Origin: a virus
Virus record (IMG/VR): IMGVR_UViG_3300017751_000039
Span: 1-44,936 of that record
Direction: 5' to 3' (one strand)
DNA: 44,936 nucleotides
The notes under the pieces were generated by a model. It ran no database searches. It saw only the letters and a program-made list of their open reading frames with translations, and was not told where the DNA came from. The position numbers and the translations under genes are program-made. Positions 17,901 to 42,160 of the stretch are shown here, piece after piece. How positions within the stretch are numbered: the stretch's first letter is position 1; each line of letters opens with the position of its first letter.

Positions 17901-20900
17901 GGTTTTCCATTTGGTCCTTCATATCGTAGAATAAATATTACAATTGGTGGTGATTATAATGTTAGACTTTTTAGAAATCAAAATGCTGGTAATCTAAGAA
18001 TATATATTAATAATGATATTACAACCACAGGACAAATAACATCAGCAGATGGATCCTCAGTATATTCATTACAATCAGGTTTATTATCTGCTGATACAAC
18101 AATTACATTACAAGCAGGACAACAGTTAGTATTATCTGTTGAAAATCCAGTTGTAGGATTATCAGTTAATTTTAGTGAAATATATAATACTTCATTACCA
18201 AACCCTCAAATTGATGCTGTTGTAGGTAGTCCATTTCCAAATGAACTTACAACTTGGAATAATCCTTATGTAGTAACAGGATCAGTAAGTAATAGATATG
18301 TAGGTGGAGTACCAATACCAGCAGGTTTTGCAACTAAAATTATAGATGCATATGTTGTATATTCTCAATCTGCAACTTCAAGTTTAGATGGTGCCTATAT
18401 ATTTGATGTAACACCACAATTTGGAACATTGTCAATGACTGCTTCTGTTTTTGTACAAGCTTTTGATGCCTCTGCTCCTACATCAGCATTATATGGAAAT
18501 GCTGAATATGGAACTGATGAATATGGCGGATCAGGAATTAGCCCAGCAGCGGGTGGTACATGGACAACAGCATCTCTAATAATATATTCAGGTTCAGCAA
18601 ACAACTTCCCTAATGAAATGCCAGAATTAGGTGGAGATATAATGTATATAACTAGTTCATATAGTACAGCTCATGGAAATGGAAAAAGAATTACATTACA
18701 AGAAAATATTTTACCTGCTCAATTAGATTATAATACAGTTTTAAAAATGGCTTTATTAGTAAGCAGTGGATCTAATAACGCAGCAGTAGTTCAAAAGGGA
18801 CTTATTGTTACTGAATATAGTATGAGTTTTTCTTCATCAATTCCTCCTAATGTAGATCCTTCTATACCTACTGTATTTAGTGATGATTCTAACTTTAATC
18901 TTGCTTTAGATTGCCAACCTTTATTAAATAATTATAGTGAAGGAAGAAAAAATGATAGATTACAAGATGTAGATTATAATTTTGGTACAGTTATACCAAG
19001 TAATTGGCAACAAATTATTGACTTTTCAGCTTCAAGAGCCTCAGTACCTGAATCTAATTATACTAAATTTTCATCTGCAAATCCTAGATATTTTGGTACT
19101 CGAACAAATAGTGCTAAAATAAATTCATGGACTCCTGGTGATTCTGGTGGATATGGAAAATTACCAAATATTGAAATATCAAGAGGATTTTTAGCTTATT
19201 TTAAAAATACTACAGATTTATATCCTTTATTAAATAATACTACTCAATATAACATACAATATTTAATTGGACAAGATGGAGCTGCTACTCAACCTAAATT
19301 ATCAGATATTACTTTATATAATGTTCAAGGTACATTTGATTCATATCCTGAGATATCTAAAGGAACAGTAGCTTTAAATCAAAATACAGATAATACTATA
19401 TTAAATCCTTTAAATGGATTAGTTGAATTTAAAAAAGTAACCCAAAAACCAGTTCCTATTATATACACTCAGAAATCAAATTTATTCCCTATAACATCTT
19501 CTTTTGATACCGCTACAGGCCTACCAGATGAGTTTTGTGAGGGACTAGATTTGATTGGAGATGAACCTGTGGATCCTACTATTGTTCCAACTTTTGCAAA
19601 TTATGGTTTTTTAGCCGAAAGTGAAGAAGTTGGGGTACAAGGAATAAACTTTACTGATGAATTTAATTCAACAGTCAAAAACCCAAATGGGAATGTTTCT
19701 CCTAATGTTACAGCTTCATTTGTAGATGGTAGTACTACTTATCAAGTATATGATACTGCAACAGGAATAATAAGAATCCCAAATGACGATGATTATCCAG
19801 TAGGTAATGCAGGCAATGGTAATTCTACTTCTCAACCTTATACTTTAGAAATGAAAGTAGGTATTGATACTTCCCCTCTTACTTATGCAGTTCAAACTTC
19901 AAATGAGAGTAAAAGTGGTAATTATAATACTTCTGTACAATTGGGAAGTATGAACATTAAGTTTCAAAGAACAAATACTCAAGGTCCTTCTAGTACCTCA
20001 TTTAATACCTTTGCACCATCAAATGTTAAAGTTGAATTAGTAACTTATATACTACAATCAGATGGTAATCTTTTAACAAATACTATTAATTATTCACAAG
20101 TAGCCCCTGCTTATATTACCGGTACTTCAGGAACTGGTGGAGTTACAGTTAATTGGAATGCCGATGTGATTGATGGTTTACTTGCTAATCAAGGTATAAC
20201 TGCTCAAGCAGTACAATTAGGAGGTACTATTCAAAAACAAAGATGGTATGTTTCATGTACAGTACCTTCATCTACTATTAGACAAGGTAGAAACTTTAGA
20301 GCTATAGGAACAGGTAATATGATTGTTTTAACCTCGGGTCAAAGAAATGTAGCATTAGATCCTGTATTTTTTCCAACGGGTCAAGGTGGTGGATTTGAAG
20401 TACGAATGGCATTAAATGGTGCACAAAGTAATCCTGTTACAGCAGCAGTTGCTCCTTTTTGGATATTTAAAGAAGATGGTAGTGGAAACAAAATTACTAA
20501 TACTTTAATAATGAGTTCATCTCAAATGAATAAGGCATATGGAAGAGGATTTATTCAAAAAGATTTAATTTATACTTCAAGTTTTAATAAAGATTTTCCT
20601 GATGGTATAGAACCTGGTTTTGCACAATTCCCAACAATTCAAACTGCATGGAATGTACAACCTTATGATGAAATTAGATTTATGGGTAAAGAAGAAGAAA
20701 CTTATTCTATAACATCAATCATTACTCCATCTCAACAACAAAATAGTAGTTATATACAAGATGGTGTTGGGATGTTAGAAGTAGTTTTAGATAGAGATAT
20801 ACATCCAAGTAATGATATTGTATTTGAATCTACTCCTGGGGGTATAGGTACATCTTTAGATGTTAAAGCAACAGCTTCTTTATATTCAGGTGATGAGGAA

Positions 20901-21152
20901 GGAACTATTCAACCACAAATTAAAAAAGTAAACTTTGGACAACAATCATTTAGACCTCTTGATTTTTTCTTAGTAAGAAGGTACGTGGAAGATGCAAGTT
21001 CTCTTATTACATTCCAACAATACCCTTACGGTAATCCACCTATAAGTGCATCCTCAACAGGGTTTATTGCACCGGAGTACCCAACATCAAACCTAAAAAC
21101 TAACCCAGATGAACTATTATCTGACTTAGTTGATAAAAAACTAATAGAGTAA
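11961..21152 (+). CDS. Giant baseplate/tail protein (3,063 aa), tail-protein-I-like and LamG-like regions
   Basis: The second-largest gene of the window encodes an Asn/Ser/Thr-rich, mainly beta protein. Residues about 450-600 contain KRIYHNLPYLLKTKGTVAGL and LITSYGIPDTIL, resembling the core of phage tail protein I. Residues about 625-810 form a LamG/concanavalin-like sandwich (AIQFRFKTNGIPS, later WDGDWWSVQINRKDGKFEL and SLQEVRYFTEPL). Residues about 993-1040 are helical (DFVRLIKFFDNSLFKMIEDFTP). The later two thirds alternate beta domains, a Gly-rich linker near residue 1810 and a conserved-looking block around 2315-2500 (LDCQPLLNN, QDVDYNFGTVIP). It follows gp6 where T4 has gp7 (1,032 residues) and may be a wedge protein fused to adhesin-like domains. 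There is no internal stop or frameshift. Short reverse ORFs at 15761 and 18395 are shadows. Confidence 0.7.
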   Translation: MEKNIVINTVDPQTFEFQDYSTSDETLIANNSLDTAFTASSDYIEAYIYDGNQNRISSQVPYTNYSVTEGDIVLKPSNDLERLGFDMGSYYISYDFYRPRLGSTLNTQYYISEISSDRTEIRLDSTQITNELLISSSLEFIAYRDEAEYFVDFFLNFGNNQQVIANNIELDLEDELNPTVLIKLYEPLPSNFTTKSQCTVVEQISTPQSYNVVFPPLDFTPDDFSYISGPNYSLNIKGESGTPGMDFSYNTLVESDLTSSFNQINSLLTRKEIDININYEDYNDFIYFSSAYTRLQNFYHKVGVIQSASLQLGKITSATTGSEIYSSSQAVFSQTIQDTIKNFDGYEYFLYFNSGSDSSYPKSNSEPPFILYPTGSTEVLEWLGSTDDESPYYGGQSITASNYDEENQNSLYFAIPEYLRSDPQNVKYELFVDMVGQHYDNLWLYTKNITTKFDADNRLDYGIAKDMVADAIRDFGVKLYSNNFNTNDLYTAFLGLTPSGSSFPFPYMTGSIGGAVNTPSGYEYVDSTISASNDIVPLDDVNKRLYKRIYHNLPYLLKTKGTVAGLRALITSYGIPDTILRINEFGGKDRNNSQDWDLKQDFYNVGLNTTSSAFTSSFNLNSDFNADENSPGAIQFRFKTNGIPSASNTPITQSFFYSSTGVGSKIAMALEYNESLLLTGSYSGSTESKYKNYGTLKFWPNETINPGNYASLYLPFWDGDWWSVQINRKDGKFELLSANAIGENLGFTGSDEINADTTKWEAADQMFWLPQTYVLFDSTYYFPFSGSLQEVRYFTEPLSQSVFFDYTMNPYSFEGNNINSAPNQLAFRLPLGTMLKTGSFNTSIHPKVTGSWVTTSSFRNDIASTASFSSAKPTWLKNIEDVYPDQSPSGMRNRVTDKIQTEALILPEGDTLSGYESIQQTSYVSESFTPSINYLEVAFSPQDQINDDITGQLGYFNIGEYIGDPRLISSSDRTYPDLDVLRDAYFEKYITNYDVTDFVRLIKFFDNSLFKMIEDFTPARTSLSSGVVIKQHLLERNRQRPAQVTSSFHNYSGSVRNLPKNYSLGSNDYPQYSDSGSAIYKFSGGTGGGFEPFNGLQTYPSGTLNLGPDNRYFVTQSWNEAWESISGSAPIDRTDQREFYNGEFSGSNIEVGLNDICSAYFKVSMTEYRYIPVFWSADGNNNTNTISEQDFLDPSNQPPSGFVWFWNNGQTLSTNSDGVVTYIKMSLETYNGYNIASFIQGVEFIIFSFSNATDFNGNILTERNATYYIESVAIQPADLSPNANSVGAALAFTVPEISSTAVSSADSAFFDFNFSASGDFIWYATDDTSTDPDVVINTGISSSIPQGYFPLPGSPLVNKNYPTESFFRGWASSNFYQNGTFISSTGILSDVLDNFNTGSHEIDNTDTTLQSGTDPASNYPWFMNAHLDQQGSSWIQIPSESFLDYSNIPDSSVGPVATNNYFNIAWTSQSSAQGVNYYYNASNNAIYISGSQFQNDLKTPGALYSSSLVAQIISQGTNLPGGYTPPGQTSLTIPISNDNELWVYQGENSGFTAGGEWQNAAPDANAWRYNRYIHRPFKIYYLTETGSGAPSEPYLEYDPMVYSGSPIISLTGPPPYYDDVRRKFATMLGTQGNIPNTLTYQKPLNATETFPSVTQTSGSFQIYSELRQVRPFIFTTYQTKLNIPGAIGPAIGSGSAISISQSDGTPFATLRMYQNEQASVPPPTPTGNSYDVTCNDFICQLYYTDEDGVLTGPISMLNNQTVAICADASLNQSQVISPISFGSFSIVLDVNNTNGACSAVITNPLGGGGGGFNLLGGTYVNQHPYFYDLTTNNGETVQNSTALGFGQDPILFGELYDGENTSSLSLLTGTQPAGDQTLPDIIFPRGDYIFTMSDFDTGRFTNGRTEFGLWTRFGDYATYDLENQVGSGHNPITIDYKDTNNTSQTIDVYQFAAVSFDGVGLSPGADNGGAQNISEDMRFFGFPFGPSYRRINITIGGDYNVRLFRNQNAGNLRIYINNDITTTGQITSADGSSVYSLQSGLLSADTTITLQAGQQLVLSVENPVVGLSVNFSEIYNTSLPNPQIDAVVGSPFPNELTTWNNPYVVTGSVSNRYVGGVPIPAGFATKIIDAYVVYSQSATSSLDGAYIFDVTPQFGTLSMTASVFVQAFDASAPTSALYGNAEYGTDEYGGSGISPAAGGTWTTASLIIYSGSANNFPNEMPELGGDIMYITSSYSTAHGNGKRITLQENILPAQLDYNTVLKMALLVSSGSNNAAVVQKGLIVTEYSMSFSSSIPPNVDPSIPTVFSDDSNFNLALDCQPLLNNYSEGRKNDRLQDVDYNFGTVIPSNWQQIIDFSASRASVPESNYTKFSSANPRYFGTRTNSAKINSWTPGDSGGYGKLPNIEISRGFLAYFKNTTDLYPLLNNTTQYNIQYLIGQDGAATQPKLSDITLYNVQGTFDSYPEISKGTVALNQNTDNTILNPLNGLVEFKKVTQKPVPIIYTQKSNLFPITSSFDTATGLPDEFCEGLDLIGDEPVDPTIVPTFANYGFLAESEEVGVQGINFTDEFNSTVKNPNGNVSPNVTASFVDGSTTYQVYDTATGIIRIPNDDDYPVGNAGNGNSTSQPYTLEMKVGIDTSPLTYAVQTSNESKSGNYNTSVQLGSMNIKFQRTNTQGPSSTSFNTFAPSNVKVELVTYILQSDGNLLTNTINYSQVAPAYITGTSGTGGVTVNWNADVIDGLLANQGITAQAVQLGGTIQKQRWYVSCTVPSSTIRQGRNFRAIGTGNMIVLTSGQRNVALDPVFFPTGQGGGFEVRMALNGAQSNPVTAAVAPFWIFKEDGSGNKITNTLIMSSSQMNKAYGRGFIQKDLIYTSSFNKDFPDGIEPGFAQFPTIQTAWNVQPYDEIRFMGKEEETYSITSIITPSQQQNSSYIQDGVGMLEVVLDRDIHPSNDIVFESTPGGIGTSLDVKATASLYSGDEEGTIQPQIKKVNFGQQSFRPLDFFLVRRYVEDASSLITFQQYPYGNPPISASSTGFIAPEYPTSNLKTNPDELLSDLVDKKLIE

Positions 21153-24997: not shown

Positions 24998-27900
24998 ATG
25001 GCTAAGAAGTTAGAAAATATTTTTAATCCAAATGTTGATGAAATTTCACAAGGTTTTACAATCAACTCTTGGCATGTATCTCAATCTGTAGATGCATTTA
25101 CCGCTGAAGATGCATATGATATATCAATATCAGGATCTTTAAATATAACAGGATCATCTACGTTATCAGGAAGTGTAGTAATTGATACTTTACCTGATGC
25201 TTCATCAGGATATGAAGTAGTAGTAGTAGATTCTTCAACAAAACAATTAAAAAAGGCATCAGCTATAAGTGCTGGTTCATCAGGCACTTCAGGTACTTCA
25301 GGAACATCTGGTTCATCAGGTACTTCAGGTTCATCAGGATCAAGTGGCTCTTCAGGTACTTCAGGTTCATCAGGTGTAAGTGGTACTTCAGGTACTTCAG
25401 GAGCAGATGGGGATAGATATCAAACAACTTCAACAACTTCAGTAGCAATAGGAACAGGTAATACTTGTATTACAGTAGAAACAGGATTAGCTTATTCAGC
25501 AGGCCAAGAAATGATTATGGCTAATAGTGATACTGCTTTTCAAACAGCTTTAGTAGTATCATATGATGAAGTAACAGGGGTACTCTGTTTTGGTAGTTTA
25601 ATAGAACAAGTAGGCTCAGGTACATATACATCATGGGAAGTAAACCTATCAGGTAATGTAGCAGGTTCAAGTGGTACATCAGGTACTAGTGGTTCTTCAG
25701 GAACATCAGGTGCTGATGGTAATGATGGTTCATCAGGTACTTCAGGTACTAATGGAACTTCAGGAACAAATGGAACTTCGGGAACAAATGGTTCATCTGG
25801 TACTAGTGGTACTTCAGATAGATATTCAACAACCTCAAGTACTTCATTTACATTAGGAGGAAATGGTACAATAACAGTAGAAACTGGTTTAGCTTATACT
25901 CCTGCTCAATCTATAATCATAGTTTATGATGTAAACAACTTCCAAGAATGTGAAGTTACATCTTATGATAGTTCTACAGGTGAATTAGTATTCCAATCTC
26001 CAACCAGAACAGTAGGTTCAGGAACTTATACAAGTTGGACAGTTAATTTAGATGGTGCTTCAGGTGGAGATGGTTCATCTGGTTCATCAGGTTCAAGTGG
26101 AACATCTGGAACAAGTGGAATTTCAGGTTCAAGTGGTACATCAGGAACTTCAGGTTCTTCAGGATCATCTGGTGTTAGTGGAACTTCAGGTTCATCAGGA
26201 ACAAGTGGAACAAGTGGTACATCAGGAACCTCAGGAACTTCAGGTACATCTGGTTCAAGTGGAACATCAGGTTCAAGTGGTTCAAGTGGAACAAGTGGAA
26301 CTTCAGGTACAGATGGTACATCAGGAACAAGTGGTTCAAGTGGAACTTCAGGTTCTTCAGGAACTTCAGGTTCTTCAGGAACATCAGGAACATCTGGTAC
26401 AGATGGAACAAGTGGAACAGATGGTTCTTCAGGCACATCCGGAACAAGTGGAACAGATGGTTCTTCAGGCACATCAGGAACTAGTGGTTCAAGCGGAACC
26501 TCTGGTACTTCAGGAACTTCTGGTACTTCAGGCACCTCAGGAACTTCAGGTACAGATGGGACAAGTGGTTCATCAGGAACATCAGGCACATCAGGAACTT
26601 CAGGTACAGATGGTTCTTCAGGAACAAGTGGAACTAGTGGGACTAGTGGAACCTCAGGAACATCAGGAACCTCAGGTACCTCTGGTTCAAGTGGGACATC
26701 AGGTTCATCAGGAACTAGTGGAACAGATGGTACTTCAGGAACAGATGGTTCATCAGGAACATCTGGAAGTTCAGGAACTTCAGGTACAGATGGTACAGAT
26801 GGTTCAAGTGGTACAAGTGGAACAAGTGGCTCAAATGGTACAGATGGCTCATCAGGAACAAGTGGAACAAGCGGTTCATCAGGAACTTCTGGAACAAGTG
26901 GAACAAGCGGTTCATCAGGAACTTCTGGTACCTCTGGTTCCTCAGGAACTTCAGGTACATCAGGAACTTCAGGTTCAGATGGTACAGATGGCACTTCAGG
27001 AACTTCAGGTTCTTCAGGTACATCAGGTACATCGGGAACAAGTGGTTCCTCAGGAACAAGCGGATCTTCAGGAACATCAGGAACAAGCGGAGAATCAGAT
27101 AAATATGCTACAACTTCAAGTACTTCTTTTACTTTAGGTAATAGTGGTACAATAACTGTTGATACAGGTCTTGCATATACCCCTGCTCAATCCATAATCA
27201 TAGTTTATGATGTAAATAATTTCCAAGAATGTGAAGTAATAACTTATGATGATACTAATGGTGAATTAGTATTTGGAAGTCCTACTAGAACAGTAGGTTC
27301 AGGAACTTATACAAGTTGGACAGTTAATTTAGATGGTGCTAGTGGTGGAGATGGTTCTTCAGGAACATCTGGGACTTCAGGAACTTCAGGTTCAAGTGGT
27401 ACAAGTGGTACATCAGGAACAAGTGGTACAAGCGGTTCTTCAGGAACAAGTGGTACAAGCGGTTCTTCAGGTACATCAGGTTCATCAGGAACTAGTGGTA
27501 CAGATGGTACTTCAGGTACAGATGGTTCAAGTGGAACATCAGGTACTACAGGTACTGCAGGTACAGATGGTTCAAGTGGAACATCAGGAACAAGCGGAAC
27601 TTCAGGTTCAAGTGGTACAAGTGGAACTAGTGGAACAGATGGTAGTTCAGGAACTTCTGGAACATCAGGTACTTCAGGTACAGATGGTAGTTCAGGAACA
27701 AGCGGAACTTCAGGTTCGAGTGGTACAAGCGGAACTTCAGGAACAGATGGTACAGATGGTAGTTCAGGAACTAGTGGAACTAGTGGAACAAGTGGTACTT
27801 CAGGAACTTCTGGTACATCAGGTGAAGTAGGAGATGATGGTTCTTCTGGTACATCAGGAACAAGTGGTTCAGATGGTTCTTCAGGTACAAGTGGTACTAG

Positions 27901-30900
27901 TGGATCTAGTGGTACATCAGGAACTTCAGGTTCAAGCGGAACAAGCGGAACTTCAGGTACAGACGGAACAGATGGTACTAGTGGTTCTTCAGGAACTTCA
28001 GGAACAGATGGTACAGATGGTACTTCAGGTACTTCAGGTACAGATGGAACAAGTGGCACTTCAGGTACAAATGGAACATCAGGTTCTTCAGGTACAAGTG
28101 GTACAAGTGGATCTTCAGGAACATCAGGAACATCTGGCTCAAATGGTACAGATGGAACAAGTGGTACTTCTGGTACTTCTGGAAGTAGTGGTACATCAGG
28201 TACTTCAGGTTCTTCAGGAACATCAGGAACCTCTGGTACAGATGGTACAGATGGCACTTCAGGTACTAGTGGTTCAAGTGGCACAAGTGGAACTTCTGGA
28301 ACAAGTGGTTCAAGTGGAACATCAGGAACAAGTGGATCTTCGGGAACAAGTGGATCTTCAGGTACATCAGGAACAAGTGGGGAATCAGATAAATACGCTA
28401 CAACTTCTTCTACTAGTTTTACCTTAGGTAATAGTGGAACAATAACAGTTGACACGGGTTTAGCTTATACAACAGCTCAATCTATAATCATAGTTTATGA
28501 TGTAAACAACTTCCAAGAATGTGAAATTGATTCATATGATAGTTCTACAGGAGAATTAGTATTTTTATCACCTACTAGAACAGTAGGTTCAGGAACATAC
28601 ACATCATGGGAAGTCAACCTAGATGGTGCTAGTGGTGGAGATGGTAGTTCAGGTACATCAGGTACTAGTGGTACTTCAGGTACATCAGGCTCAAATGGTA
28701 CAGATGGAACCTCAGGAACATCTGGTTCAAGTGGAACAAGTGGTGTTTCAGGAACAAGTGGATCATCAGGAACAAGTGGTACTAGTGGTACTTCAGGAAC
28801 TTCAGGTTCTTCAGGAACATCAGGAACTTCAGGTACAGATGGCTCTTCGGGCACATCAGGAACCTCTGGTACAGATGGTACAGATGGTACTTCAGGTAAT
28901 AGTGGTTCTTCAGGAACTTCAGGAACAAGTGGAACAAGTGGTTCAAGTGGAACTTCAGGAACTTCAGGATCAAATGGTACCGATGGTACTTCAGGTTCAA
29001 GTGGTACAAGTGGAACATCAGGTTCAAGTGGTACAAGCGGGACTTCAGGAACATCAGGCTCAAACGGTACAGATGGAACAAGTGGTACATCTGGTTCAAG
29101 TGGAACTTCAGGAACATCTGGTTCAAGTGGAACAAGTGGTGTTTCAGGTACAGATGGAACCGATGGTACTTCAGGTACATCAGGTTCTTCAGGAACTTCA
29201 GGAACAAGTGGATCATCAGGAACAAGTGGTACTAGTGGTACTTCAGGAACTTCAGGTTCTTCAGGAACATCAGGAACTTCAGGTACAGATGGAACAGATG
29301 GAACAAGTGGTTCTTCAGGAACATCAGGAGATTCAGGTTCTTCTGGGACAAGTGGTACTTCAGGAACAGATGGTACAGATGGTACCTCAGGTTCAAGTGG
29401 CACAAGCGGAACTTCAGGTTCAAGTGGAACAAGTGGAACTTCAGGTACAGATGGTACAGATGGTTCATCAGGAACAAGTGGTACAGATGGTACAGATGGT
29501 TCATCAGGAACTAGTGGTACATCAGGAACTAGTGGTTCAAGTGGTACATCAGGAACATCTGGCTCAAATGGTACAGATGGAACAAGTGGTTCAAGTGGTA
29601 CAAGCGGAACTTCAGGATCAAATGGTACTGATGGTTCTTCGGGTACAAGTGGAACATCAGGAACAAGTGGAACTTCAGGTTCTTCTGGTACATCAGGAAC
29701 CTCAGGAAGTTCAGGTACATCAGGAACAAGTGGGGAATCAGATAAATACGCAACTACATCATCAACTTCTTTTACTTTAGGTAATAGTGGTACAATAACT
29801 GTAGATACTGGTTTAGCTTATACAACAGCACAATCTATTATTATTGTATATGATGTGAATAATTTCCAAGAATGTGAAATTGATTCGTATAATAGTTCTA
29901 CAGGAGAATTAGTATTTTTATCTCCAACAAGAACAGTAGGTTCAGGTACATATACATCATGGGAAGTTAATTTAGATGGTGCTTCAGGTGGAGATGGTTC
30001 TTCAGGTACAAGTGGTACTAGTGGATCAAATGGTACAGATGGTAGTTCAGGTACTTCAGGAAGTTCTGGAACTAGTGGATCAAATGGTTCTTCAGGTACA
30101 TCCGGAAGTTCAGGTACATCAGGAACTTCAGGTACAGATGGAACAAGTGGTTCAAGTGGAACAAGTGGAACTTCAGGTTCAGATGGAACAAGTGGATCAT
30201 CAGGAACAAGTGGTACTAGTGGAGTAAGTGGCTCTTCAGGTTCAAGTGGTGAAAGTGGAACAGATGGTTCTTCAGGTACTTCAGGTTCTTCTGGAACAAG
30301 TGGTTTATCGGGTCCAACAGGTCCTTATGAATATCATGTTCCTGGGGACGAAGATTCAGGTATTCATCCTGTAAGTGGTTCAAATACTGCTAATGGTTGT
30401 TGGTCAACAATTGCTGGTGGTCAAAATAATGTTACAAATGGGAGTTGTGCATATGGATTTATTGGAGGTGGTTCTTCTAACTCAATAAATACTTGTGCTA
30501 TAGGTCAAGTTATTGTTGGTGGATGTGGTAATAGTGCCTCAGGAACCATTGGTGTTAATAAAGGAGATTATAACTTTATAGGTAGTGGTTGTGAAAACAG
30601 CAATACTGGTGGTATATCCGCTATTGTAGCTGGTAGAAATAACTGTATAACTGGTACAGGTCTTGGTGCTGCATTTACTGGTGCATCTGGTAGTTTTATT
30701 GGAGCTGGTGCCAATAACTGTATTAGTGCTGGGTGTTGTTCTGTAATTGTAGGAGGACGTCAAAATGTAAACTGTTCAAACATTAGTTTTATAGGTGGTG
30801 GAGCAAGACATACTCTTGGAAGTGACGCAACCCAAGATGTTTATAACGTAATTGTAGGTGGTCTTTGTAATTGTGCTTTTGATTTTTACAACTTTATTGG

Positions 30901-33900
30901 TGGTGGTCATAAAAACTTTATCTCTTCTAGTGTAGGTGAAAGTGGAATTGCAAATGTTGTAGTTGGAGGAGAATGTAATCGTATTGGGGGTTCGAATAGT
31001 TTTATAGGAGGTGGTATTTGCAATTACCTTACTGGTTCATGGGGTGTTATTGTTGGAGGTTCAACTAATAAAAGCCTTGATTATTCCAATGATAATTTTG
31101 TTATAGTTGGAGGTTTTAGTAATGAAAACTGTGCAGATTATACTTTTATAGGGGGTGGTTGTTGCAATGTAGCAGAACATCAACATGCTTTTATTCTTGG
31201 ATCAGATATAACTTCAGTTTCAGCTTGTACAACTCACGTAAATAAACTTAATATAGGTACTGTTAATACAGGTACTGAAGATGATGTTCTTATTATAGCA
31301 TCAGATGGTACTGTTAAAAAGAAAACAGCAGCAGCAACTTCAGGTACATCAGGTTCAAGTGGAACTTCAGGTACAAATGGAACATCAGGTTCAAGTGGAA
31401 CTTCAGGAACATCAGGCTCAAGTGGTACATCTGGTTCAAGTGGAACTTCAGGATCAAATGGTACAGACGGTACTTCAGGAACTTCTGGTTCATCTGGTAC
31501 TTCAGGTACTTCGGGTACATCAGGAAGTTCAGGAACTAGTGGAACTGATGGTACTTCAGGAACATCAGGTTCTTCTGGAACAAGTGGAACAAGTGGCACT
31601 TCAGGAACTTCAGGTTCAAGTGGCACTTCAGGAACATCAGGAACAAGTGGTTCCTCAGGAACTTCAGGAACAAGTGGTAGTTCAGGCACTAGTGGTTCAT
31701 CTGGAACAAGCGGAACAAGTGGTTCAAATGGTACAGACGGATCATCAGGAACAAGCGGAACAAGTGGTAGTTCAGGTACTAGTGGTTCAAGTGGTACAAG
31801 TGGAACTTCAGGTTCGAGTGGCACAAGCGGAACTTCAGGAACAGATGGTACAGATGGTTCATCAGGAACAAGTGGTTCATCAGGAACTAGTGGTTCTTCA
31901 GGAACATCAGGAACTAGTGGTACAAATGGTAGTTCAGGAACATCAGGTTCTTCAGGAACTTCAGGAAAAGATGGTAATTTTGGAGGTGCTACATTTGATT
32001 ATACTTTTAGTACATCAACTTCAATAGCAAATCCTGGAGGAGGTAATGTAAGATTAAATAATTCAACTCAATTTTCTGCTACAGAAATGGCAATTAGTGA
32101 GGTTGATGATCAAGGAGAAAGTATTCAAAGTTTCTTACAAACAGTAGATAGTTCAACATCAGCTGTAAAAGGTCACGTTAGGTTATCTGATAAAGATGAT
32201 CCATTAGATTTCCTTTTATTTGCAATCTCTGATTTAACAGATAATGGAGCTTGGTGGACAATTGATGTTAGTAATGAAGCATATGGGGGTAACAGTTTAA
32301 CAAATGGTGAAGACATTATAGTATCATTTGTAGTTACAGGTGATAGAGGTGACGATGGTTCTTCAGGTTCAAGTGGAACAAGTGGTTCAAGTGGCACGAG
32401 TGGATCATCGGGAACAAGTGGAACAAGTGGTTCATCAGGAACATCAGGTTCTTCAGGTACATCAGGAAACTCAGGTTCATCTGGTTCTTCAGGAACTTCA
32501 GGAACATCAGGTTCTTCAGGAACAAGTGGAACATCTGGTTCAAGTGGAACATCTGGTTCAAGTGGAACAAGTGGTTCAAATGGTACATCTGGAAGTAGTG
32601 GAACAAGTGGCACTAGTGGTTCATCAGGAACTTCTGGTACAGATGGTACAGATGGCACTTCAGGAACTAGTGGTTCAAGTGGCACAAGTGGAACTTCAGG
32701 TTCTTCAGGTACTTCAGGTTCAAGTGGTACAAGCGGAACTTCAGGTTCAAGTGGTACATCAGGTACTACAGGAACTGCAGGTACAGATGGTTCATCAGGA
32801 ACAAGTGGTTCTTCAGGAACATCAGGAAGTAGTGGTTCAAGTGGTTCAAGTGGTTCAAGTGGAACATCAGGAGTAGCTAATATATTAGATAATGCTAATA
32901 ATAGAGTTACAACAGCAACAGGAACACAAGGTGAATTACAAGCTGAAGCTAATTTAACATTTGATGGTACTCAATTAATGGTATCAGGATCAGGTAGTAC
33001 AATTTTAGATGTACAAGGTTCTCAAGGCCAATTATTTTCTGTAACTGATGATTTATTAGGAACAGTATTTGCAGCATCAGATATATCAGGAGTACCAATT
33101 TTACAAGTTAGTGCTTCAGGTTTAACACAACAAGATGGTGATATGTGTATCACTGGTTATACTCAAGTTAAGGGTAACTTTAACGTAAGACCAAATTCAA
33201 GTGGTGTTGGTGGAACTTTATCAGTATCAAGAAATGATGTTAATGGATGGAGCTCAGGTAGCCTTCAAATTAACCAAAATGGTACCATAAATAAATCAAC
33301 AATTACAGCAACGGGAAATAATGGAGGAGGAGGACTTGGTTCATCTGCTATGGGTTGTTTAGAATTCCTTACTAAGAATACATCAGCTGGTACTACCTCA
33401 AATCCATTAAATCTTAATAGTGGTACTGTAAACATGCCTTCATTATTAACTAAAACTTCTACTTGTGTAGTAGTAGTAGATTCAAATGGTGATTTAGGAT
33501 ATAGAGTAGAAGCAGGTTCTTCAGGAACATCTGGTTCTTCAGGAACATCAGGTTCATCTGGAACATCTGGTTCTTCAGGAACTTCAGGTTCATCTGGAAC
33601 ATCAGGTAATTCAGGTTCAAGTGGTTCTTCTGGAACTTCAGGTAATTCAGGTTCATCTGGTTCTTCAGGAACTTCAGGTTCATCTGGAACATCAGGTAAT
33701 TCAGGTTCAAGTGGTTCAAGTGGTACAAGTGGAGCAGCTACAATTACTAATTTAGGTAACAATAGAGTTACAACATCTACAGGAGTACAAGGAGAACTAA
33801 ATGCTGAAGCTAATTTAACTTTTAATGGCAGTACATTAGTAGCAATTGGATCATTAACTGTAGGTATGAGTAATTCTGATAGAATAAACTTTACTAGTGG

Positions 33901-35710
33901 TAGTACATCTAATCTTGGTAATTTAACATCTGTATTAGGTGGTCATGATCATCTTATTACTATGGGTACCCAAAATGCAACTATTGCCGGAGGAGCATGT
34001 AATATGAATAATGGTCAATGTTCATTTATTGGGGCAGGTTTTGCAAATACAAGTTCAGCACAAATGAACTTTATAGGAAGTGGATGTACAAATTATGCTA
34101 GTCGAGATCTTGGTGCTGTTGTTGCAGGACAAGATAATTGTAACGCAGGTATAGCATCTTTTATTGGAGCTGGTACTGATAATTATGTTGATTATTGTTC
34201 AGTTGCTACTAGTGTACTTGGTGGTAATAGAAATAAAGTATGTAATGCTTCTTGTTGTGCTGCCATAGTTGGAGGAGAAAAGAATAGCCTTTGTTTTGCT
34301 CCTTTTTCTACCATAGTAGGAGGTTGTATGAATACAATATCAGGTAGTTCCCAAATATCATTTAGTACAATAATCTCAGGTAAAGAAAATTTAGTTCAAG
34401 GAAATTATGCAGCAGCAGGTGGAGAATTTGCTCAAGCTACTGGAGATCAATCAATAGCTTATGGTTACGCAGTAACAGCATCAGGAGGTGCTTCTGCAGC
34501 ATTTGGTGCTGTTAATAATGCAAAAGGAGGTAATTCATTTGCACTTGGAGGTCAAACAAATTTAGCATCAGGATTAGATGCAGTTGCTTCAGGATGTGGT
34601 AATACAGCTAGTGGTTGTCAATCATTTGTAATTGGTACAGGTGCTACTGCTTCTGGTAATTCCTCATTTGCAGGAGGTGGATCTGGTACTAAAGCAACTA
34701 ATGAAGGTTCATTTGCATTTGGTCAAGGTAACTGTGCATGTCGTACAAACTCCGCAGTATTAGGAGGATGTTTGAATAAAGCTCTTGGTTCAGGTTGTGA
34801 TATTATAGCAGGTGGATTTTGCAATGAAATTACGAGTGGAATAGGAAATGCTATAGTAGGAGGAGCTCAAAATTATATCCAAGCAGGAAACCATAACTTT
34901 ATTGGAAGTGGAGGATCTAATTGTATCACCATGGATACTAACATAAATGGTTATACAGCAGTAAATGGAATTTGTAATATATCAGATGGGGATGGTAGTT
35001 ATTCATTCATGGCTGGGGGTTATAATAATAATTTTGGAGCATATAGTATAGTTCTTGGGAATGGATCAGTAGGAAGTAAAGGTAATGTTCAAGTTGCTAT
35101 AGGTTGTGGTATTACTACTCCAACAAGTGCAACTGCAGCTAGAGGAGATTCTCAAGTTATTGTTGGTAAATTTAATGATTATGCTGGTTCTACCTGTGTA
35201 CATAGATTTGCTGTTGGTAATGGTACTTCAGATACTTCAAGAAGTACTAAATTTGCTGTAATAGGAAGTGGTACATCTAATGGTCAAGTAGCAGTTAATT
35301 CTACAAATGGATGTTCTTTTTATACATTCTTTGTAAATGGTAGCGCAGCTAAACCATTTGGTGGAAGTTGGTCAAACTCTTCAGATGAAAGATTAAAAAC
35401 CAATATTCAAAACTATACTAAGAGTTTAAGTGATATTATACAAATCCAACCAAGAACATTTGATTATACTGGTGCAGCTAACCATCCAACAGGAAGTGGA
35501 ATTGGTATCATAGCCCAAGAAATACAAAGTATTTTCCCAGAAACAATTCATAATTTTACAGCTAAATTAAATGAAAATGATGAAGAAGAAACTACAGATT
35601 TATTAGGTTTCCAACAAGATCCACTTATATTTGCTGCTATTAATGCCATAAAGGAATTAAATACTAAAGTAGAACAACTAGAACAACGTATTCAAGAATT
35701 AGAAGGATAA
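24998..35710 (+). CDS. Giant collagen-like tail fibre with S74 intramolecular chaperone (3,570 aa)
   Basis: One uninterrupted frame encodes, in order: an anchor (residues 20-55, VSQSVDAFTAEDAYDISISG) shared with the previous gene; Gly-Thr-Ser/Gly-Ser-Ser triplet arrays totalling about 1,730 residues in nine blocks; five copies of an 80-residue beta module within the first arrays; a Cys-rich beta-helix (residues about 1,775-2,115); a beta insert (about 2,326-2,447); a second insert (about 2,626-2,839); and a long YadA-head/beta-helix region (about 2,912-3,461). The C-terminal 109 residues are a Peptidase_S74 chaperone with Ser3462 and Lys3467 in SSDERLKTN, ending in a coiled coil. S74 domains drive trimerisation and then cleave themselves off before the Ser. 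The fibre should be a trimeric receptor-binding arm. Proline is nearly absent from the triplets, unlike most collagen-like proteins. Confidence 0.88.
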   Translation: MAKKLENIFNPNVDEISQGFTINSWHVSQSVDAFTAEDAYDISISGSLNITGSSTLSGSVVIDTLPDASSGYEVVVVDSSTKQLKKASAISAGSSGTSGTSGTSGSSGTSGSSGSSGSSGTSGSSGVSGTSGTSGADGDRYQTTSTTSVAIGTGNTCITVETGLAYSAGQEMIMANSDTAFQTALVVSYDEVTGVLCFGSLIEQVGSGTYTSWEVNLSGNVAGSSGTSGTSGSSGTSGADGNDGSSGTSGTNGTSGTNGTSGTNGSSGTSGTSDRYSTTSSTSFTLGGNGTITVETGLAYTPAQSIIIVYDVNNFQECEVTSYDSSTGELVFQSPTRTVGSGTYTSWTVNLDGASGGDGSSGSSGSSGTSGTSGISGSSGTSGTSGSSGSSGVSGTSGSSGTSGTSGTSGTSGTSGTSGSSGTSGSSGSSGTSGTSGTDGTSGTSGSSGTSGSSGTSGSSGTSGTSGTDGTSGTDGSSGTSGTSGTDGSSGTSGTSGSSGTSGTSGTSGTSGTSGTSGTDGTSGSSGTSGTSGTSGTDGSSGTSGTSGTSGTSGTSGTSGTSGSSGTSGSSGTSGTDGTSGTDGSSGTSGSSGTSGTDGTDGSSGTSGTSGSNGTDGSSGTSGTSGSSGTSGTSGTSGSSGTSGTSGSSGTSGTSGTSGSDGTDGTSGTSGSSGTSGTSGTSGSSGTSGSSGTSGTSGESDKYATTSSTSFTLGNSGTITVDTGLAYTPAQSIIIVYDVNNFQECEVITYDDTNGELVFGSPTRTVGSGTYTSWTVNLDGASGGDGSSGTSGTSGTSGSSGTSGTSGTSGTSGSSGTSGTSGSSGTSGSSGTSGTDGTSGTDGSSGTSGTTGTAGTDGSSGTSGTSGTSGSSGTSGTSGTDGSSGTSGTSGTSGTDGSSGTSGTSGSSGTSGTSGTDGTDGSSGTSGTSGTSGTSGTSGTSGEVGDDGSSGTSGTSGSDGSSGTSGTSGSSGTSGTSGSSGTSGTSGTDGTDGTSGSSGTSGTDGTDGTSGTSGTDGTSGTSGTNGTSGSSGTSGTSGSSGTSGTSGSNGTDGTSGTSGTSGSSGTSGTSGSSGTSGTSGTDGTDGTSGTSGSSGTSGTSGTSGSSGTSGTSGSSGTSGSSGTSGTSGESDKYATTSSTSFTLGNSGTITVDTGLAYTTAQSIIIVYDVNNFQECEIDSYDSSTGELVFLSPTRTVGSGTYTSWEVNLDGASGGDGSSGTSGTSGTSGTSGSNGTDGTSGTSGSSGTSGVSGTSGSSGTSGTSGTSGTSGSSGTSGTSGTDGSSGTSGTSGTDGTDGTSGNSGSSGTSGTSGTSGSSGTSGTSGSNGTDGTSGSSGTSGTSGSSGTSGTSGTSGSNGTDGTSGTSGSSGTSGTSGSSGTSGVSGTDGTDGTSGTSGSSGTSGTSGSSGTSGTSGTSGTSGSSGTSGTSGTDGTDGTSGSSGTSGDSGSSGTSGTSGTDGTDGTSGSSGTSGTSGSSGTSGTSGTDGTDGSSGTSGTDGTDGSSGTSGTSGTSGSSGTSGTSGSNGTDGTSGSSGTSGTSGSNGTDGSSGTSGTSGTSGTSGSSGTSGTSGSSGTSGTSGESDKYATTSSTSFTLGNSGTITVDTGLAYTTAQSIIIVYDVNNFQECEIDSYNSSTGELVFLSPTRTVGSGTYTSWEVNLDGASGGDGSSGTSGTSGSNGTDGSSGTSGSSGTSGSNGSSGTSGSSGTSGTSGTDGTSGSSGTSGTSGSDGTSGSSGTSGTSGVSGSSGSSGESGTDGSSGTSGSSGTSGLSGPTGPYEYHVPGDEDSGIHPVSGSNTANGCWSTIAGGQNNVTNGSCAYGFIGGGSSNSINTCAIGQVIVGGCGNSASGTIGVNKGDYNFIGSGCENSNTGGISAIVAGRNNCITGTGLGAAFTGASGSFIGAGANNCISAGCCSVIVGGRQNVNCSNISFIGGGARHTLGSDATQDVYNVIVGGLCNCAFDFYNFIGGGHKNFISSSVGESGIANVVVGGECNRIGGSNSFIGGGICNYLTGSWGVIVGGSTNKSLDYSNDNFVIVGGFSNENCADYTFIGGGCCNVAEHQHAFILGSDITSVSACTTHVNKLNIGTVNTGTEDDVLIIASDGTVKKKTAAATSGTSGSSGTSGTNGTSGSSGTSGTSGSSGTSGSSGTSGSNGTDGTSGTSGSSGTSGTSGTSGSSGTSGTDGTSGTSGSSGTSGTSGTSGTSGSSGTSGTSGTSGSSGTSGTSGSSGTSGSSGTSGTSGSNGTDGSSGTSGTSGSSGTSGSSGTSGTSGSSGTSGTSGTDGTDGSSGTSGSSGTSGSSGTSGTSGTNGSSGTSGSSGTSGKDGNFGGATFDYTFSTSTSIANPGGGNVRLNNSTQFSATEMAISEVDDQGESIQSFLQTVDSSTSAVKGHVRLSDKDDPLDFLLFAISDLTDNGAWWTIDVSNEAYGGNSLTNGEDIIVSFVVTGDRGDDGSSGSSGTSGSSGTSGSSGTSGTSGSSGTSGSSGTSGNSGSSGSSGTSGTSGSSGTSGTSGSSGTSGSSGTSGSNGTSGSSGTSGTSGSSGTSGTDGTDGTSGTSGSSGTSGTSGSSGTSGSSGTSGTSGSSGTSGTTGTAGTDGSSGTSGSSGTSGSSGSSGSSGSSGTSGVANILDNANNRVTTATGTQGELQAEANLTFDGTQLMVSGSGSTILDVQGSQGQLFSVTDDLLGTVFAASDISGVPILQVSASGLTQQDGDMCITGYTQVKGNFNVRPNSSGVGGTLSVSRNDVNGWSSGSLQINQNGTINKSTITATGNNGGGGLGSSAMGCLEFLTKNTSAGTTSNPLNLNSGTVNMPSLLTKTSTCVVVVDSNGDLGYRVEAGSSGTSGSSGTSGSSGTSGSSGTSGSSGTSGNSGSSGSSGTSGNSGSSGSSGTSGSSGTSGNSGSSGSSGTSGAATITNLGNNRVTTSTGVQGELNAEANLTFNGSTLVAIGSLTVGMSNSDRINFTSGSTSNLGNLTSVLGGHDHLITMGTQNATIAGGACNMNNGQCSFIGAGFANTSSAQMNFIGSGCTNYASRDLGAVVAGQDNCNAGIASFIGAGTDNYVDYCSVATSVLGGNRNKVCNASCCAAIVGGEKNSLCFAPFSTIVGGCMNTISGSSQISFSTIISGKENLVQGNYAAAGGEFAQATGDQSIAYGYAVTASGGASAAFGAVNNAKGGNSFALGGQTNLASGLDAVASGCGNTASGCQSFVIGTGATASGNSSFAGGGSGTKATNEGSFAFGQGNCACRTNSAVLGGCLNKALGSGCDIIAGGFCNEITSGIGNAIVGGAQNYIQAGNHNFIGSGGSNCITMDTNINGYTAVNGICNISDGDGSYSFMAGGYNNNFGAYSIVLGNGSVGSKGNVQVAIGCGITTPTSATAARGDSQVIVGKFNDYAGSTCVHRFAVGNGTSDTSRSTKFAVIGSGTSNGQVAVNSTNGCSFYTFFVNGSAAKPFGGSWSNSSDERLKTNIQNYTKSLSDIIQIQPRTFDYTGAANHPTGSGIGIIAQEIQSIFPETIHNFTAKLNENDEEETTDLLGFQQDPLIFAAINAIKELNTKVEQLEQRIQELEG
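25274..25411 (+). repeat. Gly-X-Ser triplet array 1
   Basis: This 46-residue block of GTS and GSS triplets, coded by nine-base units of GGN plus mixed TCA/AGT/ACN codons, lies between the anchor and the first beta module. Confidence 0.85.
25412..25659 (+). repeat. Beta module copy 1 (divergent)
   Basis: This is the first and most divergent copy of the approximately 80-residue module: DRYQTTSTTS, then VETGLAYSAGQE, and closing GSGTYTSWEVNL. The GLAY and GTYTSW landmarks are shared with the other four copies. Confidence 0.8.
25664..25816 (+). repeat. Gly-X-Ser triplet array 2
   Basis: This 51-residue array includes GTN triplets (NGTSGTNGTSGTNG), linking module copies 1 and 2. Confidence 0.85.
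25817..26056 (+). repeat. Beta module copy 2
   Basis: The module begins DRYSTTSSTSFTLGGNG, has VYDVNNFQECEV in the centre and ends GSGTYTSWTVNLDG. It is close to copies 3-5. Confidence 0.85.
26063..27097 (+). repeat. Gly-X-Ser triplet array 3
   Basis: About 345 residues of GTS, GSS and GTD triplets. Long reverse-strand ORFs rich in Val-Pro-Glu (26026-26994) arise only because the repeated codons contain no reverse stops. Confidence 0.88.
27098..27337 (+). repeat. Beta module copy 3
   Basis: DKYATTSSTSFTLGNSG opens the module and GSGTYTSWTVNLDG closes it. It differs from copy 2 at few positions. Confidence 0.85.
27344..28387 (+). repeat. Gly-X-Ser triplet array 4
   Basis: About 348 residues of the same triplets, with one GEVGDDG interruption of composition near 27824-27840 but unbroken Gly period. 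Confidence 0.88.
28388..28627 (+). repeat. Beta module copy 4
   Basis: Nearly the same as copy 3, with TAYTTAQS-type changes: GLAYTTAQSI replaces GLAYTPAQSI and ECEIDSYDSS replaces ECEVITYDDT. Confidence 0.85.
28634..29740 (+). repeat. Gly-X-Ser triplet array 5
   Basis: This is the longest array, about 369 residues, with frequent GTDGTDG and GSNGTDG units. The nucleotide units are varied by synonymous codon changes. Confidence 0.88.
29741..29980 (+). repeat. Beta module copy 5
   Basis: Nearly identical in protein to copy 4 (GLAYTTAQSI, ECEIDSYNSS), but with many synonymous base changes, so the duplication is not recent or has been edited. Confidence 0.85.
29987..30325 (+). repeat. Gly-X-Ser triplet array 6
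   Basis: About 113 residues, ending GLSGPTGPY, the only place in the arrays where Gly-Pro triplets appear, just before the beta-helical region. Confidence 0.85.
31343..31975 (+). repeat. Gly-X-Ser triplet array 7
   Basis: About 211 residues of triplets between the first Cys-rich beta-helix and the GNFGGATFDYTF insert domain. Confidence 0.85.
32339..32872 (+). repeat. Gly-X-Ser triplet array 8
   Basis: About 178 residues, beginning GDRGDDG and ending in a run of GSSGSSGSSG before the next beta domain. Confidence 0.85.
33515..33733 (+). repeat. Gly-X-Ser triplet array 9
   Basis: This last array, 73 residues, contains GNS triplets (GTSGNSGSSG) repeated at about 45-60-base intervals. It precedes the distal head. 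Confidence 0.85.
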
Positions 35711-37578: not shown

Positions 37579-39081
37579 ATGAGTAAAATAGATTTAGTTT
37601 CTAAGCAAAGAGAAGCGGCACATAAATATGCTGCTAAAAATGCTTATCCACCTTTTGAATGGGAAGTACAATCTAACCATATTAAGTTAAAAAATGGTAT
37701 CCCCCAAGGAAATATTAGGTATACTTTTTACGATGATGATAATGATCTTCAATATGAAGGTGATATTAGAATTATTGAAGGTGAAGATGGTTTAATTAGA
37801 CAAGATATTGATTTTAAATTAGTTGAAGGTCAATATGAAGATGTAGTTAATTCTTTTAATATATACCGACTTTATTCTACACAAGTTACAATTGGCTATT
37901 GGGTATGTGATACTTATCAGCACATTAATATTATTTGTATAAGAGGATATGGAGAGAAAGCAGCTATTAGAGCTAAGCTTGCTGCTCGTTATTGGAAACA
38001 AGTATTAGGAGTAGATTGTACCCCTAGTAAATTTTTAGGAGAAGATGTTTTAGAAGTTCCATTTAACCTCCCAGAACCTTTGTTTTATGATACAGATAAA
38101 ATAGATATTTTGCAAAAAATAAAATCAAAATTCCCTCAAATTCAACTAGAAATTTTAGATTATATTAAATCAAATGAATTTTATGATTATCCTAAATATG
38201 AAGTATCAAATGAATTGTATGATGGAGAATTATATAAAAATGATTGGAAAGCAATTCCTTTAAGTGAATTTGAAGAAGAGCATGTTGAATTAACTGAAGA
38301 TGATGCGGTTAAATCAGAAATAAATAATAAACTTCCTAAAATAAAAGGTTTAATTCCAACTTATAATAAAATAATTAAACAGGGTGAAAAAGAAGGATGG
38401 ATTAGAAATTCATTTCTTTCAAAATTAAATCCTGGGAGTATTATAGAACCCCATAAAGGATGGTCAAATAATTTTTTAAGATGTCATATTGGTATAGATG
38501 TAGATAATGAATGTTATATAACAAAAGAACTCCCCAATTCTGATTTAAAAATAAAAGAAACAAGAACTTGGAAAGAAGGAGAATGGATTGCATTTCAAGA
38601 TGGAGGTAATTATTTACATTCAGTAAAACATAAAGGAACAAAACCTAGAATAGTATTATCTTTAGATCTTAATTTGGATTATATATTTGAGGGTAGTTAT
38701 TTAAAATATGCACAAGCACCTTTACGATCTAATTTATATTATAGTTTTACAACTACTATTATTAAAGGAAGACAAAAAACCCCTTCTTTTCCAACTGCTA
38801 ATTTTAAAGAAAAACCTAATTTAAATTGTGGGTTATATATAGTAGATACTAATTTTGGTAAAGCCCTTTTAATCCATTTCCCCCCTTCTATAAAAAATCC
38901 ACAACCAACTTCAGTTCATATATTAAACTTTAACAAGGACATATATGAAAAAGAAATTACAATTTCTAACCCCAGAATAATTAATGATACAGAAAATGAT
39001 GATGTCCTTGTATCTAGTATAGGATTAGGATTTGATAGTCCTTTAATTGAATGTTTTAATAAATTTTGTGAAGAAATATAA
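37579..39081 (+). CDS. Large protein with Asp/Asn beta-hydroxylase-like (2OG oxygenase) domain
   Basis: This 500-residue protein contains, at residues about 275-370, the pattern of Asp/Asn beta-hydroxylases (PF05118-like). His292 lies in GSIIEPHKGW, followed by Arg301 and His303 in FLRCHIGID. Then come a WKEGEWIAFQDG segment, His347 and His351 in NYLHSVKHKG, and Arg357 before VLSLDL. This fits an iron- and 2-oxoglutarate-binding cupin. Residues 1-200 and the last 130 are unrecognised; the N-terminal part is highly charged. Such enzymes hydroxylate Asp/Asn side chains in proteins. A phage target is unknown. It starts after a TTCGTATATT motif and its stop abuts the primase start. A shadow ORF on the reverse strand covers part of it. 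Confidence 0.65.
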   Translation: MSKIDLVSKQREAAHKYAAKNAYPPFEWEVQSNHIKLKNGIPQGNIRYTFYDDDNDLQYEGDIRIIEGEDGLIRQDIDFKLVEGQYEDVVNSFNIYRLYSTQVTIGYWVCDTYQHINIICIRGYGEKAAIRAKLAARYWKQVLGVDCTPSKFLGEDVLEVPFNLPEPLFYDTDKIDILQKIKSKFPQIQLEILDYIKSNEFYDYPKYEVSNELYDGELYKNDWKAIPLSEFEEEHVELTEDDAVKSEINNKLPKIKGLIPTYNKIIKQGEKEGWIRNSFLSKLNPGSIIEPHKGWSNNFLRCHIGIDVDNECYITKELPNSDLKIKETRTWKEGEWIAFQDGGNYLHSVKHKGTKPRIVLSLDLNLDYIFEGSYLKYAQAPLRSNLYYSFTTTIIKGRQKTPSFPTANFKEKPNLNCGLYIVDTNFGKALLIHFPPSIKNPQPTSVHILNFNKDIYEKEITISNPRIINDTENDDVLVSSIGLGFDSPLIECFNKFCEEI

Positions 39082-40807: not shown

Positions 40808-41524
40808 ATGGCATTTTTTAGAGGACCAAATATTGCACGTACAGATAAAATTATTGCATCTTATGATGCAGCTTCTAACAAAAGCTATACTACTGGAACC
40901 CAGTTTAAGAATTTGATAGATGATAATAATAATTTAACAGTAAACGGTTCACCTACATTTAGTGATGGTCAAAATGGAGATGGATATGGTTATTTTACTA
41001 TGACATCTAATCAAACAACAAAGTATTTTCAAGCTTCTGCCTTTCCTTTTCCTACTACTGATATTACAATAGAAATATGGTGTAGAACCACAGATGCAAC
41101 TAAAAATCAGGCTTTAATAAGCTATGCTGTATCTGGAGATAGTAATGAAAACTTATTATTCTATGCAGGTACAAGTAGCCAAAAAATGAATCTTTTTGGA
41201 CCCGTTGGTTCTATATCTTCTTTTAAAGCTCTTACAGAAAATGCTTGGACCCAAGTTGTTTATACTAGAAAAAGCTCATCAGGAACTACAAAATTATTTT
41301 ATAATGGTGTTGAAGAATTTTCAACAACTTTAGCAGCGGGAACAAATTTTACAACTAAGGGAACATTAAATTTTGGTCAAGAACAAGATAATGAAGGTGG
41401 TGGATTTGATCCTTCTCAATGTTGGATTGGAGATTATTCTATTATTAGAATTTATGATCATGTTTTAGATGTAATTGAAATAGAGCAAAATTACAATTCA
41501 CAAAAATCAAGATTTGGATTATAA
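40808..41524 (+). CDS. LamG/concanavalin-like protein 1
   Basis: This 238-residue protein is a jelly-roll of the LamG_3 type. It begins GPNIARTDKIIASYDAAS, has DITIEIWCRTT as the central sheet, AWTQVVYTRKSS and a strand LFYNGVEEF, and closes with YDHVLDVIEIEQNYNSQKSRFGL. The closing motif (IEQNYN-X-K-SR) recurs in the next two genes, so the three are tandem paralogues. They probably bind carbohydrate or decorate the virion. It is led by a late-type motif. The function is inferred from fold. Confidence 0.75.
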   Translation: MAFFRGPNIARTDKIIASYDAASNKSYTTGTQFKNLIDDNNNLTVNGSPTFSDGQNGDGYGYFTMTSNQTTKYFQASAFPFPTTDITIEIWCRTTDATKNQALISYAVSGDSNENLLFYAGTSSQKMNLFGPVGSISSFKALTENAWTQVVYTRKSSSGTTKLFYNGVEEFSTTLAAGTNFTTKGTLNFGQEQDNEGGGFDPSQCWIGDYSIIRIYDHVLDVIEIEQNYNSQKSRFGL

Positions 41525-42153: not shown

Positions 42154-42160
42154 ATAAAAT

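Follow-up and report, generated by a model that had tools for sequence, protein, structure and literature searches.

Among the closest described systems, EPclA, the collagen-like side tail fibre of an E. coli O157:H7 prophage, has been shown to form a triple helix with a melting temperature (Tm) of 42 °C (PMC3368898). In bacteria, the Burkholderia protein Bucl3 consists of 38-63 GTS and GSS triplets without proline, and for all Bucl proteins other than the four with the highest stability melting was predicted at 20-35 °C (PMC4565658). The proline-free (GAS)19 array of Burkholderia Bucl8 gave a triple-helix circular dichroism (CD) spectrum at 25 °C (PMC7682875), and the Bacillus F-BclA protein has a 701-residue collagen region, 45% of it Ser/Thr, whose predicted length of 196 nm agrees with the measured 204 nm (PMC11952670). 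For pelagimyophages, the literature mentions triple collagen repeats and YadA domains (PMC7029224). Here we describe a tail-fibre gene (24998-35710) of the IMG/VR virus record IMGVR_UViG_3300017751_000039, analysed over positions 1 to 44,936 (this whole stretch of 44,936 nucleotides is called the window; all features given below lie on its plus strand). Nearly half of the encoded protein consists of Gly-X-Y triplets almost devoid of proline. We consider it probable that this protein is a homotrimeric long tail fibre, in which weak, imino-poor collagen triple helices act as spacers clamped by globular domains.

Nine nearly proline-free Gly-X-Y arrays in one fibre gene

The fibre gene is one open reading frame (ORF) of 3,570 amino acids (aa) with no internal stop. 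It follows conserved baseplate and tail genes, and a PHROGs search of its product returned tail-fibre families. The protein contains nine unbroken Gly-X-Y runs, arrays 1 to 9, of 16 (25274-25417), 17 (25664-25816), 116 (26054-27097), 117 (27335-28387), 124 (28625-29740), 39 (29978-30328), 72 (31343-31990), 60 (32339-32878) and 25 triplets (33515-33739), which sum to 586 triplets or 1,758 aa, that is 49.2% of the protein. The Pfam Collagen family (PF01391) matched at E=2e-219, with 709.9 bits against a cut-off of 27.2.

The composition of these arrays is unusually simple. At X, Thr (375 triplets) and Ser (171) account for 93% of the positions, with 40 occupied by other residues, while Ser (486), Asp (69) and Asn (18) make up 98% of Y, leaving 13 others; the most frequent triplets are GTS (309), GSS (156) and GTD (56). 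The two positions are clearly not equivalent, as Thr occurs 375 times at X vs 3 times at Y, and Asp/Asn 87 times at Y vs 12 times at X. Proline was found at only 2 of the 1,172 X and Y positions, both (GPT, GPY) at the end of array 6, and Lys and Arg are nearly absent, so the usual stabilisers of collagen, proline or hydroxyproline (Hyp) and charged pairs, are missing. Such stabilisers are typical of collagen-like proteins, but they do not define them. Glycine makes up one third of the arrays and stands at X in only 5 of the 586 triplets, and there are thus no glycine-dominated blocks of the kind that would mark polyglycine II (PGII). By simple arithmetic, with 0.286 nm for each residue, all arrays together would span about 503 nm if wholly helical.

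The initial annotation of this locus, made from the letters alone, agrees with most of these counts. It had described nine uninterrupted blocks covering nearly half of the fibre, about 1,730 collagen-like residues (slightly fewer than counted here), Gly-Pro at the end of array 6 only, and an arm of about 0.5 micrometre, the last of which holds provided that all arrays are helical. It had also assigned Thr, Ser, Asp and Asn mostly to X; this is right for Thr and Ser, whereas Asp and Asn belong mainly to Y.

The order of triplets in the window arrays is not random either: after GSS comes GTS 138 times (80 expected), another GSS only 15 times (42 expected) and GTD never (13 expected). A universal rule of triplet order can be rejected, since the avoidance of GSS-GSS, though shared by the window and many of its relatives, is missing in some; it probably reflects lineage history.

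Several trivial explanations of the arrays were also rejected. Chance or a frame artefact is ruled out by the single reading frame, the strength of the Pfam match and the synonymous character of the single-nucleotide polymorphisms (SNPs) described below. An assembly artefact is likewise ruled out, as four contigs from other assemblies, each differing from the window by 8-10 codons, have nine runs of identical length. The ORFs listed on both strands within 26026-33762 are by-products of the repeat. A tblastn search with one array as query gave no match, as such low-complexity sequence is masked by the filter.

Selection maintains glycine at every third position

All 13 distinct array SNPs that separate these four near-identical contigs from the window are synonymous. 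For a broader estimate we used 236 ungapped in-frame blocks between related arrays of many phages (80-98.5% identity, about 18,000 codon pairs), in which the ratio of nonsynonymous to synonymous changes (N/S) was 0.028 for Gly, 0.749 for X and 0.472 for Y; glycine is thus under a constraint about 17-27 times stronger than that on X or Y, and this contrast is still large even if some of the blocks may be paralogous. The glycine changes listed were all Gly/Ala. Judging from these alignments, selection holds glycine in each third position, and X and Y are free to change, for the most part from one small or polar residue to another. Such a constraint is the signature of collagen, being required by a triple helix but not by a plain flexible linker.

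The longest exact repeat in the arrays is 96 nt, while codon shuffles that keep the protein gave 37 ± 4 nt. This excess of long exact repeats indicates that the arrays grew by segmental duplication followed by synonymous drift. The same shuffles rule out active recoding to avoid DNA repeats.

A 79-aa module bridges the arrays

Arrays 1 to 6 are separated by five copies of a 79-aa module, at 25412-25651 (a divergent copy, which overlaps array 1, in our count, by that array's final two residues), 25817-26053, 27098-27334, 28388-28624 and 29741-29977. This module belongs to no Pfam or PHROGs family. An AlphaFold2 model of copy 3, based on an alignment with 45 relatives and, like all our structure predictions, limited to a single chain, is all-beta with a mean pLDDT of 97; it has no fold match in the PDB at E<=0.001, and it is closely matched by predicted viral protein structures named ‘Collagen triple helix repeat’ in BFVD.

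Scanning for the module revealed 59 loci in IMG/VR and 4 in GTDB genomes, all of the latter titled as members of Bacteroidota. In 60 sequences (window included), 112 of 130 copies stand between two Gly-X-Y arrays, and the 79-aa element is therefore a dedicated array-bridging module. It joins proline-free GTS arrays in some phages, GPT/GAT or GVQ/GPQ arrays with about 9-20% proline in others, and GST/GFT arrays in still others. As one type of module serves both proline-free and proline-containing arrays, the arrays look interchangeable. Among the related fibres, two (L051 and L052) have arrays in which Val dominates X and Gln dominates Y (GVQ), with about 9-12% proline, and two others (L053 and L054) have nearly proline-free Gly-Ser/Phe-Thr arrays, with Phe at 166 of 449 X positions in L053.

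Conserved N-terminal part and exchangeable tip of the fibre

The C-terminus carries a Peptidase S74 intramolecular chaperone domain (PF13884, 35381-35545; E=7e-11, 42.7 bits against a curated cut-off of 22). The 656 aa that follow array 9 match the heads of trimeric autotransporters, namely BpaC (E=1e-6), YadA and UspA1, as well as CbpF, with the best match at 34400-34771; the same part also matches myelin regulatory factor in its S74-like domain. A 338-aa region with head-like GGG repeats (30329-31342) separates arrays 6 and 7; on its own it had no Pfam, PDB or phage match. It is 31% identical to the C-terminal head region over 236 columns, and by this resemblance arrays have head-like and probably trimeric domains on either side. 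A 116-aa domain (31991-32338) separates arrays 7 and 8 and is present in about a dozen fetched phage loci, and for the 212-aa region between arrays 8 and 9 (32879-33514) no significant family was found.

The N-terminal 92 aa (24998-25273), which are predicted to form the virion-attachment end, had no match among sequenced phages. Three related phages with differing tips show 73-85% identity over residues 1-352. In three relatives arrays 1 and 2 stay at 16 and 17 triplets (the length of array 1 is identical in L010, L011, L013 and L020, and that of array 2 in four relatives), while later arrays vary in length. The C-terminal tips have been swapped between relatives, with S74 in the window and other C-termini in L013 and L020. 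A fixed, predicted virion end combined with a variable, predicted receptor end is the usual pattern of a fibre.

Proline-free arrays are widespread in environmental phages

A search for Gly-Thr-Ser arrays found many of them: a degenerate DNA pattern for GTS repeats hit at least 120 stretches in IMG/VR. Among the matches listed, proline was below 1% in 101 of 112 loci with at least 20 triplets, and the longest single run, on a 240-kb virus contig (L189), has 843 proline-free triplets. Another locus (L209) has 1,015 triplets or more, 639 of them in a single run, and the 735-kb uncultured huge phage LR756503 (LR756503.1, L005) has one ORF with 301+44+424 triplets. Seen against these, the window fibre is large but typical of its widespread class; it is not unique, and others are longer. 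No open-access paper that we found deals with giant arrays of this proline-free kind in phages; most subscription journals lay outside this search.

How the fibre may fold, and what else the arrays could be

In the mechanism that we favour, assembly of three identical chains would begin at the C-terminus, and their register would be set there by the S74 chaperone together with a trimeric beta-roll head. The nine arrays would then wind into imino-poor collagen triple helices, with globular modules clamping the chains every 16-124 triplets. Since the modules would clamp the chains, each helix would need to be stable only with both its ends held and at the temperature of the host. The Thr and Ser side chains at X and Y would give a uniform, uncharged to mildly acidic and well-hydrated surface. 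The N-terminal end would bind the virion and the variable C-terminal tip the host surface, and the arrays between them would form a long, semi-flexible spacer, reaching up to about 0.5 micrometre, that duplication could alter in length.

Some observations weigh against this mechanism. GTS and GSS are weak triplets. The trimer and the helix are read from sequence, and the structure was predicted for the monomer alone. The blocks behind the N/S ratios passed a phase filter requiring 85% local Gly, which biases them somewhat toward conserved glycine. Related phages (W01 and W03) share the baseplate genes and yet have no collagen arrays, so the fibre arm is dispensable for this tail type. Finally, the (GAS)19 array is short, its CD peak is shallow, and its authors allow for a mixture of helix and coil (PMC7682875).

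One could suppose that the arrays are intrinsically disordered Gly/Ser/Thr tethers, similar to GGS linkers, which give reach between trimeric clamps without a rigid helix. This would fit their linker-like composition, the lack of proline, the low helix propensity of the triplets and the strongly varying lengths of arrays 3-9 between related phages. However, a linker needs no glycine at exactly every third place, and the constraint on glycine far exceeds that on X or Y; moreover, Thr keeps to X and Asp to Y, and unbroken runs reach 843 triplets elsewhere among the matches listed. We therefore regard a disordered tether as rather unlikely. A PGII-like or other three-fold packed bundle in place of the classical collagen coil, which the initial annotation had also proposed, is less probable still. 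PGII is a close relative of collagen geometry; known PGII fibres, such as phage S16 gp38, however, have glycine in the majority. Imino-poor stretches of collagen do relax toward a 10/3 helix (PMC13138384). The window arrays, with glycine at exactly one third and a strong difference between X and Y, speak against such packing.

It is also conceivable that the arms become triple helical only through modification, either by a phage Asp/Asn beta-hydroxylase or by O-glycosylation of Thr/Ser in the host. A gene for a 500-aa protein (37579-39081), 1.9 kb downstream of the fibre gene and absent from the initial annotation, encodes an Asp/Asn beta-hydroxylase domain (PF05118, E=3e-20; AspH in the PDB at 9e-4) fused to a flavokinase-like C-terminal domain. 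The HxG...RxH...H...R residues are visible by inspection, potential targets are present (Asp/Asn at 87 of the 586 Y positions), and all 5 contigs of the baseplate-related set that have the gene carry collagen arrays. On the other hand, 16 collagen-bearing records do not have it, so that it occurs in just 5 of 21. Of the 45 contigs with the module, 5 have it; for the most part these are closely related to one another and fragmentary (fragments may hide genes). Among phages, distant matches of the 500-aa protein were limited to a few Prochlorococcus and Pseudomonas phages, and no glycosyltransferase was found among the scanned genes of the window. The enzyme may possibly modify the fibre, but its distribution does not support a role as a general stabiliser of the arrays, and we doubt strongly that modification is what makes the arms helical. 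A far bolder statement, that Gly-Thr/Ser-Ser is the complete proline-free collagen code of widespread giant phage fibres, stable over hundreds of unbroken triplets through side-chain and water hydrogen bonds plus clamps, with further tuning in this clade through a phage enzyme, the Asp/Asn beta-hydroxylase, that would modify Asp/Asn at Y, seems highly improbable to us.

The reading of the protein as a collagen-like, S74-ended, presumably trimeric fibre, put forward in the initial annotation, is well supported by the Pfam and head matches and by selection on glycine. Its further claim, that the arrays need a special source of stability, loses weight in view of the proline-free (GAS)19 helix, of Bucl3 and of the wide occurrence of such arrays in phages.

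Genomic context of the fibre gene

The fibre gene lies in a tail and baseplate operon, with genes for gp25 and baseplate J as neighbours. The baseplate J-like protein shares 44% identity with its counterpart in Flavobacterium phage immuto (160 kb), 42% with that in Microcystis phage Mel-JY01 and 35% with that in a 484-kb uncultured phage. Gene order is shared with immuto and the other baseplate-J relatives up to the fibre position, and a DNA primase follows. By these gene comparisons, the window derives from a contractile-tailed phage related to immuto; a Bacteroidota host is a guess by analogy with that phage.

Some other genes deserve mention. Upstream of the fibre gene, 11961-21152 encodes a 3,063-aa protein with no Pfam or PHROGs family, whose N-terminal ~600 aa share 36% identity with an immuto protein of 1,265 aa and which is greatly enlarged in the window. 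Three adjoining genes of ~210-240 aa (40808-42874), two of them with concanavalin A-like/pentaxin domains, resemble the C-terminal parts of large phage virion proteins. A zeta-toxin-like kinase domain is encoded at the contig end (44279-44935).

Significance and comparison with known systems

In teaching, the stability of collagen is put down to Pro and Hyp, and the proline-free phage arms offer a test set for what a triple helix needs. The central question that they raise is how such arrays fold, and the general class matters more here than this single gene. The arrays predict phage fibres of half a micrometre, in principle visible by microscopy, and Gly-Thr/Ser-Ser arms might become a source of collagen materials that need no hydroxylation.

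By fold and sequence, the 79-aa module is shared with ‘Collagen triple helix repeat’ proteins of uncultured Caudovirales and of Virus NIOZ-UU157 (BFVD), which are known by automatic annotation alone; we know of no functional study of them. LR756503 shares both the module and proline-free GTS arrays with the window, its genome being otherwise unrelated at the level tested, and, unlike the window, it carries several ORFs with such arrays. F-BclA resembles the window fibre in having a very long Ser/Thr-rich collagen arm that ends in a head, trimeric in F-BclA and probably so in the window fibre, a likeness that involves no comparison of X and Y composition, but it is a spore appendage with other caps. 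Bucl8 has a proline-free array like those of the window; it is, however, an efflux-channel part with 19 triplets and Ala at X. Bucl3 has the same GTS/GSS triplets and lack of proline, but is bacterial, with one array and no phage fibre domains. EPclA and EPclB share with the window fibre a Gly-X-Y stretch placed between trimerisation domains, which in the window fibre are predicted ones (PMC3368898). Their helix is short and proline-rich and has other caps, whereas the window fibre has 586 triplets, 2 prolines, and S74 and head-like caps. Collagen-helical phage fibres, GTS/GSS collagens such as Bucl3 and the proline-free (GAS)19 triple helix have thus already been published, and what the present locus adds is the scale, the near-total lack of proline, a 79-aa bridging beta module without a Pfam entry, and the nearby Asp/Asn beta-hydroxylase gene.

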